Shown: piece after piece, positions 1 through 6,621 of the stretch
Layout: each line of letters begins with the position of its first letter
Position numbering within the stretch: position 1 is the first letter of the stretch
Position numbers and translations under genes: made by a program
The notes under the pieces: model-generated
The model's input: only the letters and a program-made list of their open reading frames with translations
Told to the model about the DNA's origin: nothing
The model's database searches: none
Source of the DNA: a virus
Virus record (IMG/VR): IMGVR_UViG_3300027906_000145
Location: 1 to 24,720 of that record
DNA: 24,720 nt
Strand: one strand, 5' to 3'

Positions 1-1416
1 TCTTTTAAGAACTCCTTTACCTACTGTTTTAGCCATGGCTTTAGCACCACCTTTAACTGCATCATCTGCTGTTGAAGCAGCGCCGCCTGCACCTCCTTTT
101 ACATTTGGTTTGGGTTTAGGTTTAGGGTCAACTTTAGGTGCAAATAACTTAGGGAACATTTTTGCAAGGCCTGCTTTCAAACTTGAGAATATACTCCCTA
201 TTTTCTTAACAACTATTTCACCAGCCTTTGCGAGACCAGCGAATGGTGCTTCTGCCCAACCATCGATTTTGTCTTTGAGATATAAGAAAGCTCCGCCAAG
301 TGCTATTATTGGCATTAAGAATTTTAATAAATGCATCATAAACTTCTTCGCTTCATTCAGCTTCTGAATAGCAAAGATTTTCATATCGTTTTTCTTTCTT
401 TGGAGAAATTCGTTCTTAATGAATTTATTAACAAATTTTTGTTTCCTGTCTTGCATTTTCTTCCAGAAAGACAACTTAGTTTTTTCGGTTTTATTATCGC
501 CACCTTTTCCGGATTTGCGTTTTTTGATGGCATGAACATCATTTCGAATCGGTGTAAGCATCTTAACTTGAAATTCTTTCGAAGAGTTCAATTGTCTTTG
601 GATTCCCTGTAAGAGATTTTCCATTTTCTTGGTGCTGATGCCACCACTACCTTCTGAACTTCCGTCTTCTTCGTCTCCACCTTCTCCGCCACCTTCTTCA
701 TCCTTTGGCTTAAAGAGTTTGCCGAAAGTTAGTTTATTGCCAATGGTTCTAGCTTTATCTCCTAATTTCTTAGAGGTTGCTTGTCTTTTTTCTCTGGCTT
801 CTTCTTGGGTTCCAAATATTTTATTGGCTATGCCGCCTTCTTTACCATCAGCTGGAACCATACTTCTTATAGCTCTAAAGAGGTATCTAATTGCTTTGCC
901 AACTGCGAAAAAAGCGGCCACAATCATTTGTATACCACCTTTGAATATATTCCAAATACCAATCGCTTTATAAATGACATTTTTGAAAGCATTCATAGCT
1001 GGACCCAATGCACCAACACCATTTGTGAGTTCTTTTAAACCACCACTAAAATTCTTGGTACCTACTGTCCACAAATCCATGCCCTTAACTTGAGCTTCAG
1101 TATATTCTTCTAGGTGTTTCTTTGAGAACATTTTTTCAAGGGGTTTAGTAAACGCAGATGAAGCTTCTTTAAGACCCTTCCAGAATCCTGATTTTTCCTT
1201 TTCTGATGCATCATTGTTATTTTTCTGGTTGTCAATGACTTTTCCTATACCGCTCTCGAATTTTTTCGAGAGGCCGTGCATCTCGTCTTGAGCTCTAAAG
1301 GTGTTTGTATCAACATTCCTAGACCATTTATTGGTCTCTGTTTGTTGATAAAGGGTATCTTTGAGATAACCTATAGTTTTCTCGTCACGCTTGTTTGGAT
1401 TTGGAAGTGTAGCCAT
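1..1416 (-). CDS. Large helical virion protein, tape-measure-like (3' end outside window)
   Basis: An open frame of 472 codons runs from the ATG at 1416 to the left edge without a stop, so the C-terminus is missing. The protein is basic and helical. Residues 146-186 are a long hydrophobic/amphipathic stretch, 239-259 a Gly/Glu/Ser-rich linker, 310-345 very basic, 361-381 a good membrane-type helix, and 429-438 a Lys-Pro repeat followed by Gly/Ala-rich sequence. Alternating amphipathic and hydrophobic helices with Gly-rich linkers are typical of phage tape-measure proteins. Its position downstream of a frameshifted chaperone-like pair fits, because that pair precedes the tape measure in most long-tailed phages. 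T4 gp29 would be the functional counterpart, but I see no specific gp29 motif. There is no clear Shine-Dalgarno; a GATAAATA octamer ends 6 bases before the ATG. The reading frame is secure; the tape-measure role is inference. Confidence 0.7.
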   Translation of the reverse strand, partial: MATLPNPNKRDEKTIGYLKDTLYQQTETNKWSRNVDTNTFRAQDEMHGLSKKFESGIGKVIDNQKNNNDASEKEKSGFWKGLKEASSAFTKPLEKMFSKKHLEEYTEAQVKGMDLWTVGTKNFSGGLKELTNGVGALGPAMNAFKNVIYKAIGIWNIFKGGIQMIVAAFFAVGKAIRYLFRAIRSMVPADGKEGGIANKIFGTQEEAREKRQATSKKLGDKARTIGNKLTFGKLFKPKDEEGGGEGGDEEDGSSEGSGGISTKKMENLLQGIQRQLNSSKEFQVKMLTPIRNDVHAIKKRKSGKGGDNKTEKTKLSFWKKMQDRKQKFVNKFIKNEFLQRKKNDMKIFAIQKLNEAKKFMMHLLKFLMPIIALGGAFLYLKDKIDGWAEAPFAGLAKAGEIVVKKIGSIFSSLKAGLAKMFPKLFAPKVDPKPKPKPNVKGGAGGAASTADDAVKGGAKAMAKTVGKGVLKR

Positions 1417-1421
1417 GCTAT

Positions 1422-1820
1422 CTATTTATCGCCAAACGCTTTTCCAGCTTCTGATATTCCAAATGCACCAAGTGTCACTACAACAAATGATGTATAGATT
1501 GTTTCAGATACTTTTAGGTCCATATCCCATACTAATGCTGTTATTAAGTCTGTTGCACCAAACAACATCATTAGAAAGAATGAAATGAATCCTATTATAG
1601 CCTTTTCGTTTAAGTCGTTTGAATCTAAGAACAAGTCTATAAACTTTCTCTTAGGTGGTTCTACGCCTTCTTTTAATTTTCTAGCATCATCTTTTAATGC
1701 TTTGATTACATCTTCTTGGTCATCGAGTTTGTCCAAGAGAGCCATGTATTTCTCCAAATCAATTTCGACTTCATTTCTGTCATCTCTATCATCGTAGTCT
1801 CTATCTCTATCTCTAGCCAT
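1422..1820 (-). CDS. Small membrane protein, charged N-terminus and two TM helices (holin-like?)
   Basis: A 132-residue protein. Residues 1-20 are an Arg/Asp-rich tail, about 20-55 a probable coiled coil, about 73-97 and 105-125 two hydrophobic segments separated by a short polar loop. This topology fits a class II holin or a membrane-associated tail-assembly factor. I recognise no family signature. The start at 1820 overlaps the stop of the upstream -1-frame ORF (TAATG), and AGGAG lies about 8 bases upstream of the ATG, inside that ORF, so translation is probably coupled. It sits between the gp26-like pair and the tape-measure-like gene; in T4, gp28 (reported as membrane-associated) belongs to the 27-28-29 group, so a gp28-like role is an alternative to holin. 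Neither is shown by sequence. Confidence 0.6.
   Translation of the reverse strand: MARDRDRDYDDRDDRNEVEIDLEKYMALLDKLDDQEDVIKALKDDARKLKEGVEPPKRKFIDLFLDSNDLNEKAIIGFISFFLMMLFGATDLITALVWDMDLKVSETIYTSFVVVTLGAFGISEAGKAFGDK
1423..1430 (-). promoter_or_regulatory. Late-promoter-like octamer GATAAATA
   Basis: On the minus strand GATAAATA spans 1430 to 1423 and overlaps the TAG stop of the two-TM gene; its last A is 6 bases from the ATG at 1416. It differs from the T4 late consensus TATAAATA only at the first base. With T4 spacing the transcript would begin about one base before the ATG. Confidence 0.35.
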
Positions 1821-2014
1821 TAGTTTCTCCTGTTGGCAGCTGCTTTCTGCCTCTCTTTTTCTTCTTCAAGATATTGCATTAATAAGTTAATGTATATATC
1901 CCTTTCCCATGGAATCATGCTTTCTAATTCAGTCAGCGAATACTTGTGATGTTGCATCATTTGAAAGTTTGTTTGGTAATAGTTAACCAAACTATCATGC
2001 GAAAGGGTTACTAA
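1820..2014 (-). CDS. -1-frame extension of the gp26-like protein (chaperone second ORF)
   Basis: This ORF lies in the -1 frame relative to the upstream gp26-like gene and is open from the slippery run to the TAA at 1822-1820. Read from the TTA at 2014-2012 it adds 64 residues, giving a fusion of about 298 aa. The peptide is protein-like throughout: an N-terminal part with NYYQTNF, then HHKYSLTELESMIPWERDIY, then a charged Glu/Lys/Arg helix. The first in-frame ATGs (1960-1955) have no Shine-Dalgarno, and the coding character begins well upstream of them, which favours expression by -1 frameshifting. Independent initiation would give a 46-aa protein. It sits where gene 51 (hub assembly catalyst) follows gene 26 in T4. 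Its stop overlaps the next start as TAATG. Confidence 0.75.
   Translation of the reverse strand, partial: LVTLSHDSLVNYYQTNFQMMQHHKYSLTELESMIPWERDIYINLLMQYLEEEKERQKAAANRRN
1971..1992 (-). other. Perfect 7-bp hairpin downstream of the slippery site
   Basis: On the minus strand GTTTGGT (1992-1986) pairs perfectly with ACCAAAC (1977-1971) around an 8-base loop. It starts 21 bases after the slippery heptamer, farther than the usual 5-9 base spacer of -1 stimulators, so a stimulatory role is possible but unproven. Confidence 0.45.
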
Positions 2015-2715
2015 AAAAAACTTTGTAAACCTTGGAGTATATTATTAGATACTTCTCCACATTTATCACATTTGTATTCTACCTCTTCTTTCAAAGAAGG
2101 CATTGATTCAAAATACTCACTAATCTTTTCGAATTGTGGAACAGTAAGATTTTCTATAAATTCATCTATTTCCGCATCTCTAAATTCTGACATTTCGTAA
2201 ATATTTTCTTCATCATATATTCTAAGCATACAACCTCTAAGGATAGGTTTAATCATTTCGACTTCATCTAATCCTTCTACATTATATACTAGTTCGGAAG
2301 TTGGTGGTGATAATTCTATCATCAACTCTTCGCTAATTTGAATTTTATTGTCTAATACACTTGAGGTATCAACTGCAACTTTCGTTAGGTCCATGTCAAC
2401 ATAACCTACTCCGTCACACTCGTCTTTCATGCACATCAAAGGAACTTTGGCAGTTTCTCCAATTGACTTAGTTCTAATTTGTAAAAACAAATACTCTAAA
2501 TCGACTAGAGGTAGTTTTGAACCATCTACCTTTCCTTCTGTTACCGCCTTAATCAAATTCATAATCGCATCAAAAATCGCAGCTGCATCTTCACTTTCTC
2601 TTGCAACTAACAGATGATTCTGTTCTTTTACAAGGAAAGGTCTATATTCCACTTTAAGTTTTGATATTGGTAGCTCGCATTTATACTGCGGAGCTTTCTG
2701 TATTGGTAAACCCAT
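2011..2715 (-). CDS. gp26: gp26-like baseplate protein, 0-frame product of a frameshift pair
   Basis: A 234-residue protein resembling the T4 gp26 baseplate family (T4 gp26 is about 208 aa). Family-like stretches are YRPFLVKEQNHLLVARES near 24-41 and LPLVDLEYLFLQIRTKS near 68-84. Cys95/Cys100 (C-x4-C) and Cys216/Cys219 (C-x2-C) could form a zinc site. It ends QSFF on an eight-T run abutting the TAG, allowing a -1 fusion with the following ORF. By analogy with lambda G/GT and P2 E/E' this suggests a tail or baseplate assembly chaperone role. The start at 2715 has AGGAG about 10 bases upstream in an 18-base gap after the gp54-like gene. The family call is from recalled motifs and moderately sure; the ORF is secure. 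Confidence 0.75.
   Translation of the reverse strand: MGLPIQKAPQYKCELPISKLKVEYRPFLVKEQNHLLVARESEDAAAIFDAIMNLIKAVTEGKVDGSKLPLVDLEYLFLQIRTKSIGETAKVPLMCMKDECDGVGYVDMDLTKVAVDTSSVLDNKIQISEELMIELSPPTSELVYNVEGLDEVEMIKPILRGCMLRIYDEENIYEMSEFRDAEIDEFIENLTVPQFEKISEYFESMPSLKEEVEYKCDKCGEVSNNILQGLQSFF
2014..2020 (-). other. Probable programmed -1 frameshift site (T TTT TTT)
   Basis: The minus strand reads AAAG, eight T, AG. In the frame of the gp26-like gene this is AGT TTT TTT TAG, so a phased T TTT TTT heptamer lies directly against the stop codon. A tandem -1 slip leaves both tRNAs perfectly paired and the next codons are TTA GTA ACC, entering the 64-codon -1 ORF. An SD-like AAGG lies about 10 bases upstream, the spacing at which internal SDs stimulate the dnaX -1 shift. 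Confidence 0.75.
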
Positions 2716-2733: not shown

Positions 2734-3834
2734 TTATCCTATAATACCACCTAGTTCTGCTAGACGGTCATTGAATCTTTGAAGAGTGTTGTTTGTACCA
2801 TTACCACCTTTTCTCATATTGGTAATACTTGCAATCGCATCAAAGAATCTTCTTCCTTTATTTATACCGCTTACAGGATTAGGATTCTCGTATCTGGATT
2901 CCCAAGTCCTAAAAGCGAATGTAGTTTCAAATTTCATTAATTCATCAGATGAGTCCGAATTTAGTTCCATTGGATTAAATGAAACTGGATATGCCTCATG
3001 AATTCTGTATACAAGTGAGTCTTTATCAGACCTTGTAATTTGTTTTACTATTATCTCACCCACATAGTTTTCGTAGTATTCGAACTGTGGATTAATTGAA
3101 TTGCCTGCTCCAACATCACCCATTTTGGATAGGAGTGATTTATTCTCATCAGCAAGTTCGCCCATTTTACTTCTTAAGTCAGGATCATTTCTGACTGATT
3201 CTTGTAATTTCTTGTTCTCTGCTATTTGGGATCCAATTTTCTCGTGGTGTTGTGCTTCGGTTGAACGGCCCTGAAAGATTGCATTTTGCCATGCTTCAAT
3301 AATAAATCTATCTGCAAATGTTGAATCACATAGAAATGTAAACGATACTTCTTGTCCATCCATTCCTAATTGATAAGGCAACTTTCTTGTTGGTCCATAT
3401 TCAGACCAATCTGCTGTTTCTAACTGGCGACCAGGTAATGTTGCATTAACGCATCTCACTCCTTCTAAGTTTAACCCCAATTTAGGACAAAAGAATTGCA
3501 CTTCAAATCTATTTGGTCTTGCACCTTGGTCAAATTGATATCTTAATCTGTCTATATTTAATCTATTATTTCTAGACTTTATCCTTCCTTCATCATCTAT
3601 ATCAGTGCTATACATATGAGATGGTGGATTAGCTAATGCGTGGGCCCTTTCTTCTTTACGAGCTTCTCTACGAGCTTGTCGTTTTTGTTTTCTTGTAATT
3701 GAATTTGCCACAGATGCATTGGCTTTAGTTCTTTCTTTTGCAGAAGCTTCACCAATATCTATCATTGCTGATTTTTTGAGTTTTTCTCCTACTAGAGCAG
3801 AACCAACTTTTGTTCCAGTTATTTCGTTAGCCAT
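2734..3834 (-). CDS. gp54: Baseplate tail tube initiator, gp54-like
   Basis: A 366-residue protein (T4 gp54 is about 320). Residues 107-190 and 250-312 have the character of the tail-tube (gp19/gp48/gp54) fold: RPNRFEVQFFCPKLGL, then NATLPGRQLET, WSEYGPTRKLPY, DGQEVSFTFLCDSTF and later NYVGEIIVKQITR and YRIHEAYPVSFNPMEL. gp54 would seat on the hub/wedge assembly and nucleate tube polymerisation. Oddities: a basic helical N-terminus (30-70) and a charged helical insertion at about 190-245 that interrupts the tube-like fold. The ATG at 3834 overlaps the end of the upstream gene by 8 bases. gp54 is preferred over gp48 because the gene at 7101 looks more like gp48; the two paralogues could be swapped. 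Confidence 0.7.
   Translation of the reverse strand: MANEITGTKVGSALVGEKLKKSAMIDIGEASAKERTKANASVANSITRKQKRQARREARKEERAHALANPPSHMYSTDIDDEGRIKSRNNRLNIDRLRYQFDQGARPNRFEVQFFCPKLGLNLEGVRCVNATLPGRQLETADWSEYGPTRKLPYQLGMDGQEVSFTFLCDSTFADRFIIEAWQNAIFQGRSTEAQHHEKIGSQIAENKKLQESVRNDPDLRSKMGELADENKSLLSKMGDVGAGNSINPQFEYYENYVGEIIVKQITRSDKDSLVYRIHEAYPVSFNPMELNSDSSDELMKFETTFAFRTWESRYENPNPVSGINKGRRFFDAIASITNMRKGGNGTNNTLQRFNDRLAELGGIIG
2859..2866 (-). promoter_or_regulatory. Candidate internal late promoter TATAAATA
   Basis: An exact TATAAATA on the minus strand (2866 to 2859) lies inside the 3' end of the gp54-like gene and points toward the gp26-like gene, whose ATG is 138 bases beyond the predicted start near 2853. 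Being inside coding sequence it may be chance. Confidence 0.3.
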
Positions 3835-4473: not shown

Positions 4474-5322
4474 TCAGAAAGTATATATTCTATAGTTTTC
4501 TTTTTCTATTGTCTCTACAGAATTGGGATAGAGCTCCAGCAGCGAGCTCAGGTCCGCTAGGCTAAGGGTATGGTTGTTTTTAGTCTCAATCGCTACACCT
4601 GATGCACCTTCTGTTCTAACATAAGGCATTACATCGTCTGCTCCGACTCCACGCAACACGGGAAGTTTATTATCGAACATAGATTTGATATCTTCTGTTG
4701 AATTAACAATAGTTGGTCTATCTTCTTGCATATGCATCTCTAATATCTTACCTTCGACACTTGCAATGAAGAATGTCTTGTCTTTTACTCTCATAAAGAT
4801 GTTTTTCCACTCTTCAAATGTTAATGGAGTTCTATCAGAGAATGTTTCGTTGGTATCCCACATAACAATATCATCTTCTAATGTTTGTAAATACCATAAT
4901 GCATATATTCGTGACATTCCTGGATGAATGAACATATGTTTGCCCTCAATTACGCCTTGAATAGTGGAATCTAGGCCAACAGTTCGATATTGGTCAATCA
5001 AATACATAATTTTACAACAATGATAGACTTTATTCTGGTTTTCCTTCATAGTTTCTTCGGAAAATGTGTTTTTATCGATGGTTGGGCCATCTATACCATC
5101 AAGTAGGGTTACGACATAATCGATTAATCTACCGTCATTATATCGAGTGTTGTTTTCTCCGATTAAATCTTTATCTACACAATCACCTAGATTGATAAGA
5201 TATGGTTTAGACCTGTTCTCACATATCCAATTGAAGTATTCTTCTGCCTCAATTAGAGATTCCGGTGATTCAGATATATAAAAGTGTTTGAAGTCTTCGT
5301 ATGGACTATTAGTTGTAAGCAT
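4474..5322 (-). CDS. Unrecognised protein of the KdsB/HAD cassette
   Basis: A 282-residue soluble, acidic protein with no membrane helix. The most distinctive stretch is residues 123-142, which include GKHMFIHPGMSRIYALWYL; this loosely recalls the ParB/sulfiredoxin-type pocket (Gly/His-x-x-Arg followed by a helix), but I would not assign that family. Trp143, Trp155 and Trp172 lie in a middle region; the C-terminus is a plain helix-strand. The start at 5322 has GAGGAG about 8 bases upstream, the best Shine-Dalgarno on this strand, and overlaps the end of kdsB by 14 bases, so it is probably translated with the Kdo gene and may act in the same sugar pathway. That link is inference from position only. 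Confidence 0.6.
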   Translation of the reverse strand: MLTTNSPYEDFKHFYISESPESLIEAEEYFNWICENRSKPYLINLGDCVDKDLIGENNTRYNDGRLIDYVVTLLDGIDGPTIDKNTFSEETMKENQNKVYHCCKIMYLIDQYRTVGLDSTIQGVIEGKHMFIHPGMSRIYALWYLQTLEDDIVMWDTNETFSDRTPLTFEEWKNIFMRVKDKTFFIASVEGKILEMHMQEDRPTIVNSTEDIKSMFDNKLPVLRGVGADDVMPYVRTEGASGVAIETKNNHTLSLADLSSLLELYPNSVETIEKENYRIYTF

Positions 5323-6061
5323 TTATAAACTCCTCGACTCTTTTTAAGTCTTCTGGTGTATCTACTGATAGACCTTCATCGTCTACTTCGACCATTTTAA
5401 CTTCATGTTCATTCTCTAAGTATCTTAACATCTCAACTGATTCAGATTTCTCATTTTCTCCTACTTTTAATTTAGGAAATAGTTCTAACATGTCTCTATC
5501 AAAGACATACAGACCCAATTGTTGTTTAAATGTTGTTAGTTCTTTCTGTTGATATGGTATCGCAAGTCTAGAATAGTATAATGCATCACCATTCATGTTC
5601 GTCACAACCTTAACTACATTCTTATCGTGTAGTTTGTATGAGTCATCTACATAGACATACGCATTGGTCACACCAATACCACTATCATGTTCTTCTATGA
5701 GTTTATCAATCGCATCTGGATTGATTAGAGGTTCATCTCCTTGAATGTTTACGAATACATCACCGTCTAGCAGCTCTAGTGCTTTCGCACATCGGTCTGT
5801 TCCACTTCGAACATCTTCTTCAATGACTATACATCGTATTTCATTCTTTGCACAATACTCATTGATTCGTTCATCGTCTGTAAGAACGACAACAGAGTCG
5901 ATGTTCTCACAACAACATGCACGGTCATAAACTCTCTTTATCATTGGAACACCATTGATTGGTGCTAAGGGTTTTCCCTCGAATCTAGTCGAGTGCCATC
6001 TAGCAGGTATTAGACCTACAGTGAGATTACTTGTTCTATCTGGTCTACTGAGACTTCGCAT
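5309..6061 (-). CDS. kdsB: 3-deoxy-manno-octulosonate cytidylyltransferase (CMP-Kdo synthetase)
   Basis: Transfers CMP from CTP to Kdo or a related ulosonate, activating it for transfer to lipid A or a capsule. Using the ATG at 6061 the protein is 250 residues, the usual KdsB length. Motifs: GLIPAR-x3-TR-x2-GKPL (16-32), the nucleotide loop; RSGTDR (85-90); NIQGDEPL (105-112), diagnostic of the family; YYSRLAIPY (162-170); LGLYVFDRDML (182-192); and SVDTPEDL near the end. An upstream ATG at 6124 would add 21 residues, almost wholly overlapping the HAD gene, so it is less likely. The chosen start still overlaps that gene by 46 bases and has only a weak GGAAAA upstream. Kdo enzymes belong to Gram-negative envelope synthesis, so the role is probably to alter the host surface. 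A different CMP-ulosonate product is possible. Confidence 0.88.
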   Translation of the reverse strand: MRSLSRPDRTSNLTVGLIPARWHSTRFEGKPLAPINGVPMIKRVYDRACCCENIDSVVVLTDDERINEYCAKNEIRCIVIEEDVRSGTDRCAKALELLDGDVFVNIQGDEPLINPDAIDKLIEEHDSGIGVTNAYVYVDDSYKLHDKNVVKVVTNMNGDALYYSRLAIPYQQKELTTFKQQLGLYVFDRDMLELFPKLKVGENEKSESVEMLRYLENEHEVKMVEVDDEGLSVDTPEDLKRVEEFINAYN

Positions 6062-6621
6062 TTCACTTTTCCATAACCATAGTTTGCGTGTATGAACTTT
6101 ATGTTCGCTCTTTGAGCAGCCCAATGGTCTACATTCATGTCTCCTATGTAAACTGAATCAAATGGATCCGTATTACACATAGACATACAGTAGAGTAATT
6201 GGTCTGGCGCAGGTTTACCTCTTAGTCCTTGTTGAGGTGAACACACAAAATCGAATTTTGGCAAGTCTTTTATCATAGACTTAGTTCTATTTGCATGTTT
6301 AGAGGTAACAATCGCAATCTTATTACCATTCTCTTTTAATTTACTCAATGTTTCGATTACGCCAGGATATATAGTGATTAAATCTTGGTTGTCTAAAGAT
6401 GCACCACCATAAGTATCATATATTTCTTGATGATTGTCTTCTATACCGATTGCACTAAGAATATCTTCGAATGGTTTACCAACATGTTCAAAATAGTTTG
6501 TAAAACTTGGTTCTAAACTGTGTGTTATCTTGCATCTGTTCCAAGATGCCTCCATGTTCTTTTTAGAATCAATTAAAACGCCGTCTAAATCAAACATATA
6601 GAGTTTGGGGAGTTCGTTCAT
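6016..6621 (-). CDS. HAD-family phosphatase (Gph-like, subfamily I)
   Basis: A 201-residue haloacid dehalogenase hydrolase with all four motifs: DLDGVLIDS at 11-19 (nucleophile Asp11, acid Asp13), VTSK at 105-108, Lys136 in GKPAPD, and GDMNVD at 160-165. The helical insert between motifs I and II (about 20-85) is a type-I cap as in phosphoglycolate phosphatase, unlike KdsC, which is capless. It may still supply a dephosphorylated sugar to the neighbouring KdsB, but substrate cannot be read from sequence. Its start overlaps the stop of the gp4-like gene as ATGA, and its 3' end overlaps kdsB by 46 bases, so gp4-HAD-kdsB form a tightly coupled set. Confidence 0.85.
   Translation of the reverse strand: MNELPKLYMFDLDGVLIDSKKNMEASWNRCKITHSLEPSFTNYFEHVGKPFEDILSAIGIEDNHQEIYDTYGGASLDNQDLITIYPGVIETLSKLKENGNKIAIVTSKHANRTKSMIKDLPKFDFVCSPQQGLRGKPAPDQLLYCMSMCNTDPFDSVYIGDMNVDHWAAQRANIKFIHANYGYGKVKCEVSVDQIEQVISL

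Follow-up and report, generated by a model that had tools for sequence, protein, structure and literature searches.

Does a gene that closes on a run of thymines beside its stop codon make one protein or two, and what would the products do? The question is raised by a gene resembling gene 26 of phage T4 that lies, in a T4-like marine phage, on the minus strand of the IMG/VR virus record IMGVR_UViG_3300027906_000145, of which positions 1 to 24,720, the whole stretch of DNA analysed (24,720 nucleotides, nt), are called the window here. A small open reading frame (ORF) in the position of gene 51 follows it in the -1 frame. Our answer is that the gp26-like gene is very probably a tail assembly chaperone (TAC) gene decoded by programmed -1 ribosomal frameshifting. 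The frameshifting is strongly supported by sequence comparison; for the chaperone role, which in this phage is a predicted one, homology gives good support and the modelled fold a less firm one.

The gp26-like gene and its -1 extension

Three features make up the putative frameshift gene:

2011..2715, minus strand: gp26-like gene, encoding the short form (TAC-N) of 234 amino acids (aa), PF12322 T4_baseplate (from Pfam, PHROG 150 and GenBank matches)
2014..2020, minus strand: slippery heptamer T_TTT_TTT (from the sequence and 98 of 100 loci)
1820..2014, minus strand: -1 frame extension, 64 codons plus stop, C-terminal part of the long form (TAC-NC), the 'gene 51' ORF (from PHROG 634 and the ratio of nonsynonymous to synonymous change, pN/pS)

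The gp26-like ORF ends CAA AGT TTT TTT TAG, with an 8-T run at 2013-2020 that abuts the 0-frame stop TAG (2013..2011). A preliminary description of this locus had read the end of the ORF as AGT TTT TTT TAG with a phased heptamer, which is borne out (ORF 2715..2011, heptamer 2020..2014), and the open -1 frame of 64 codons and the predicted fusion of 298 aa beside the 234-aa form are exactly as it claimed. We envisage that most ribosomes would halt at TAG, giving the short form, and that a minority, with tRNA-Phe in both the P and A sites on T_TTT_TTT, would slip back by one base and read 64 more codons to give the 298-aa long form. The slip is probably stimulated by a Shine-Dalgarno-like stretch upstream, and in some relatives also by a hairpin. 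If the proteins act as lambda G and GT do, the tape measure protein would be coated by the short form, and tail-tube subunits would be recruited through the C-terminal portion of the long one; T4 obtains these two proteins from duplicated genes, gp26 (short) and gp51 (long). That slippage takes place at all, its rate and the effect of the stimulators are inferred for this phage.

The slippery site is conserved in phase and in codon choice

We compared 100 loci, comprising the window, GenBank isolates and IMG/VR contigs, the last retrieved by N-terminal and mid-protein motifs and not by the C-terminus; loci with less than 70% identity to one another gave 84 representatives. An in-frame T_TTT_TTC, T_TTT_TTT or T_TTT_TTA was present in 98 of the 100 loci, with a 0-frame stop 0-9 codons later, and in those 98 the -1 frame was open and encoded a conserved MPWER-type extension (three contigs stop inside it). 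Phe-Phe at the site was written T_TTT_TTY in 91 of 91 cases, compared with 33 of 346 at other places in these loci, and the codon preceding the heptamer ended in T in all 84 representatives, compared with 65% for the same residues elsewhere. The 8-T run and its phase were retained in five close relatives (L001-L005). Aligning homologues had been proposed as a check on the frameshift, and the T-run and the -1 phase proved to be kept.

The predicted products are probable tail assembly chaperones

The 234-aa protein matched PF12322 T4_baseplate over model positions 2-218 of 219 (E 5.5e-49, 167 bits, curated cut-off 24.5) and PHROG 150, baseplate hub (E 1.2e-49), and 590 GenBank phages match the gp26-like protein. 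The -1 piece belongs to PHROG 634, baseplate hub assembly catalyst (gene 51; E 4.2e-29), which T4 gp51 matches too. In an alternative reading the frameshift is real, but the proteins serve as components of the baseplate hub or as catalysts of its assembly and not as chaperones of the tape measure. The T4 proteins gp26 and gp51 are classically hub assembly chaperones, gp26 being also a possible hub component (PMC3004832), and the large downstream gene of the window is tape-measure-like only in appearance; its S-PM2 counterpart matched a tape-measure PHROG (E 3.7e-5). We nevertheless consider this alternative rather unlikely. Passages of PMC10885494 and PMC12846349 that cite earlier work give gp26/gp51-type proteins as the tail assembly chaperones of T4-like phages, and a short form paired with a long form is itself an architecture that argues for chaperones. 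In addition, the short form modelled with AlphaFold2 (predicted local distance difference test, pLDDT, 87.5) had as its best structural match the HK97 tail assembly chaperone 2OB9, with a Z of 7.3 (below 8) over 82 residues within 1-85; the next match scored 4.8. In a viral library, the Foldseek matches were gp26 homologues. The short form carries an extra C-terminal part that is zinc-ribbon-like (CDKC).

In most loci the -1 frame is under selection ahead of its first ATG

pN/pS was computed over 22 codons in 40 independent pairs. Past the slip point it was 0.27 in the -1 frame and 1.1-2.4 in the other frames, and over the initial 12 codons it was 0.36, in agreement with the earlier remark that this frame is protein-like before its first ATG. 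In 65 of the 84 representatives that ATG comes no earlier than codon 14. In the window it lies 18 codons past the slip, and the sole start ahead of it, a TTG at codon 8, shows no Shine-Dalgarno pairing (+0.8 kcal/mol); the -1 ORF had indeed been described as having no ribosome binding site. Since the first 12 codons are selected at the protein level before any start in most loci, the piece ahead of the start appears to be translated, which needs a frameshift.

The same data bear on the possibility that two separate proteins are made, gp26 stopping at TAG and the small ORF being translated from a start of its own by re-initiation or coupling. Most GenBank annotations, such as those of S-PM2, P-HM1 and phiM7, do give separate genes, and K476 and AG3 have a TAATG-type overlap. 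However, most loci offer no usable start ahead of the conserved part, separate proteins would leave the synonymous choice at the heptamer unexplained, and T4 gp51 has the same piece fused in frame. Two separate proteins are therefore very unlikely, and own-start translation of the extension was rejected on conservation, phase and selection.

Transcriptional slippage would fuse the frames by another route, with RNA polymerase stuttering on the 8-T run so that some mRNAs gain or lose a T. Eight T are present in the window and in 22 other representatives, but 47 of the 84 have six T followed by C or A, a run too short for much polymerase slippage, and the phase is kept regardless; it is also the T_TTT_TTY phase of tandem tRNA slippage, and we regard polymerase stuttering as most unlikely. 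An assembly or sequencing error that hides a single in-frame fusion one base longer or shorter has a practically negligible chance of being the explanation, prone to error as homopolymer runs are, because the phase is identical across many independent isolates and contigs with differing flanks, in which the distance from the heptamer to the stop varies from 0 to 9 codons, and the five close relatives agree on the T-run; this candidate was rejected, the homologues having already refuted it by conservation, phase and selection.

Candidate stimulatory elements

Two further features flank the heptamer in the window:

2030..2033, minus strand: AAGG, Shine-Dalgarno-like but weak, 9 nt upstream of the heptamer (pairing energy -3.8 kcal/mol)
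1971..1992, minus strand: hairpin GTTTGGT/ACCAAAC, 21 nt past the heptamer (from folding, z -2.9)

Among the relatives a Shine-Dalgarno-like stretch lies 8-16 nt upstream of the heptamer, where it is coded by a Glu-Gly-Leu motif; in most of them it reads GGAGG or GAGGG, stronger than the AAGG of the window. The mean pairing energy at -16..-8 was -6.2 kcal/mol over the 84 representatives versus -4.9 for synonymous recoding (p 4e-7), and codon usage was biased to GAG GGN (GAG:GAA 28:14 versus 75:293, p 2e-9). A similar Shine-Dalgarno-like element helps -1 slippage in Escherichia coli dnaX. Downstream structure was modestly enriched (mean z -1.02 versus -0.36, p 0.004); hairpins occur in S-PM2 (14 bp) and in P-HM1 (6-nt spacing).

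Several observations weigh against a frameshifted chaperone gene at this locus. The known stimulators are poor in the window, where the Shine-Dalgarno-like element is weak and the hairpin, at its distance of 21 nt, is probably too far for a classical stimulator. In the T_TTT_TTA group a downstream hairpin is only suggestive, its covariation (74% paired versus ~40% when slid) being not clearly above shuffles. Foldseek alone found only noise for the short form in the PDB, a result that excludes no fold family. No profile, tape-measure profiles included, matched the gene at 1416..1 or its full-length 688-aa relative; the label 'tape-measure-like' that the preliminary description gave to this gene, one gene beyond the extension, was thus not confirmed, the likeness consisting of size, position and hydrophobic stretches only. 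Finally, no experiment demonstrating slippage or a fusion protein in any of these phages was found in the literature searched.

T4 and several T4-type phages carry two genes and no slippery site

Both T4 gp26 and T4 gp51 match PF12322 over its length, and gp51 adds the PHROG 634 piece, indicating that the two are paralogues that correspond to the short and the long form. T4 gp51 is collinear with the predicted fusion across the slip point (its end reads YSL..I..MIPAER, compared with YSLTELESMIPWER) and, by sequence, corresponds to the whole fusion in a single reading frame. A hidden slippery site was sought in T4 gp26 and none was found. A single PF12322 copy was present in each of 14 single-gene isolate genomes, whereas T4, RB43, phiP4-3 and five IMG/VR T4-type genomes have two (one long copy is broken), and no PF12322 copy in these two-copy genomes contains a slippery heptamer. 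Two copies without the heptamer as against one copy with it suggest that a short and a long chaperone can be obtained either through the frameshift or through the gene pair. The statement that T4 itself is not known for the frameshift stands in that T4 has no heptamer; it is to be corrected in that T4 uses two paralogous genes instead. A homologue fused in frame without a slippery run, named earlier as a case that would speak against the frameshift, exists in T4 gp51, yet it comes with a second, short gene. Together with the T-run and -1 phase of the homologues, this supports the proposal that gp26 and the small gene-51 ORF are the T4-type counterpart of the frameshift chaperone pair.

In the tree, the long forms make up one cluster (100/99), and the frameshift is retained in Straboviridae, for example LPCS28 and AsFcp_1; the root is unknown, and the row DUPshort_L110, a wrong (gp28-like) ORF from a weak match, was disregarded. 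Two arrangements were observed besides. In the T4-type phage G004 (locus L112), whose genome has three PF12322 matches, the gp51 long-form gene is split into two frames, by a sequencing error or a real break, and in phage RB43 (L114, 3001-4294) the long and short paralogues stand in tandem on the same strand, unlike the divergent pair of T4.

The Ackermannviridae KP6, SJ2, AG3, Ds9CZ, SD25 and 3M and the related vibriophages D509 and K476 (L118-L123, L012, L022) have no canonical heptamer. At the same place they have ATT, GTT or CTT followed by TTY, with the -1 frame open and conserved and sometimes a TAATG overlap; their neighbour Bakedbeans retains T_TTT_TTC. Either one-tRNA slippage or re-initiation may operate at such a site. 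A single-protein scan for relatives of K476 turned up none. On balance we favour the view that a single frameshifted chaperone gene with a two-part signal (a Shine-Dalgarno-like stretch 8-16 nt upstream and T_TTT_TTY, sometimes with a hairpin) is the general state of the T4 superfamily, that the T4 pair is an exception, arising from one duplication that made the frameshift dispensable, and that the Ackermannviridae site drifted to a non-canonical NTT_TTY.

Neighbouring genes

The genes flanking the gp26-like gene and its extension are as follows:

2734..3834, minus strand: gene preceding gp26, tail-tube-like (match to PHROG 45, tail tube, E 8.7e-30)
1422..1820, minus strand: 132-aa protein with a charged N-terminus and hydrophobic segments, no family (from the ORF and profile search)
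1..1416, minus strand: start of the large tape-measure-like gene, cut by the window edge (from position, size and hydrophobic stretches only)

The 132-aa protein, which sits between the chaperone and the tape-measure-like gene, is kept in the closest relatives. Elsewhere in the window, a KdsB-like cytidylyltransferase (PF02348, E 4e-44; 5309-6124, minus strand) adjoins an HAD phosphatase (PF13419; 6016-6621, minus strand). The pair, which lies between genes for a TnsA-like (gp4-type head completion) protein and a DNA end protector, appears to form a sugar-nucleotide module within the virion region. Beside it, 4474-5322 (minus strand) encodes a 282-aa protein with no Pfam match.

Comparison with known systems

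Vladimirov, Gautam and Davidson (2022, Virology 566:9-15) reportedly identified the tail assembly chaperones of T4-like phages, and the window proteins are very probably the same as theirs. Passages that draw on that work state that some T4-like phages have one short and one long gene (PMC10885494) and that the TAC-N genes of T4-like phages bear poly-T -1 signals (PMC12846349). Frameshifting of this sort is familiar from other tailed phages. Since such chaperones and signals were already reported, the gene pair and the frameshift described here are not new in kind; what is added here is the Shine-Dalgarno-like stimulator and the Ackermannviridae variant without the canonical heptamer. The frameshift would also explain the cyanophage gp51 'stump', which is about 20% of the T4 length with the first ~200 residues missing (Sullivan et al. 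2010, PMC3037559): the missing residues would come from gp26. In hundreds of T4-superfamily genomes, what is annotated as two genes is thus more likely to be a single frameshifted chaperone gene. The signal is short and conserved, and the superfamily offers a clean natural experiment, with programmed frameshifting doing in some phages what gene duplication would do in others.

The modelled N-terminal fold of the short form may resemble that of HK97 gp13. Compared with lambda gpG/gpGT, P2 E/E' and HK97 gp13, the short form is larger and has the CDKC part; no sequence similarity to these proteins is claimed. The TAC locus of Vandenendeviridae and Andersonviridae, as in phage Adele (PMC12846349), has a conserved -1 extension after a T-rich signal, as here; the Adele signal is GTTTTT, not T_TTT_TTY, and resembles the Ackermannviridae variant. 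The homology to T4 gp26 and gp51 extends throughout, the short form corresponding to gp26 and the predicted fusion to gp51, but T4 encodes them in separate paralogous genes that lie on opposite strands and lack a heptamer, whereas the window record has one gene with a -1 extension.
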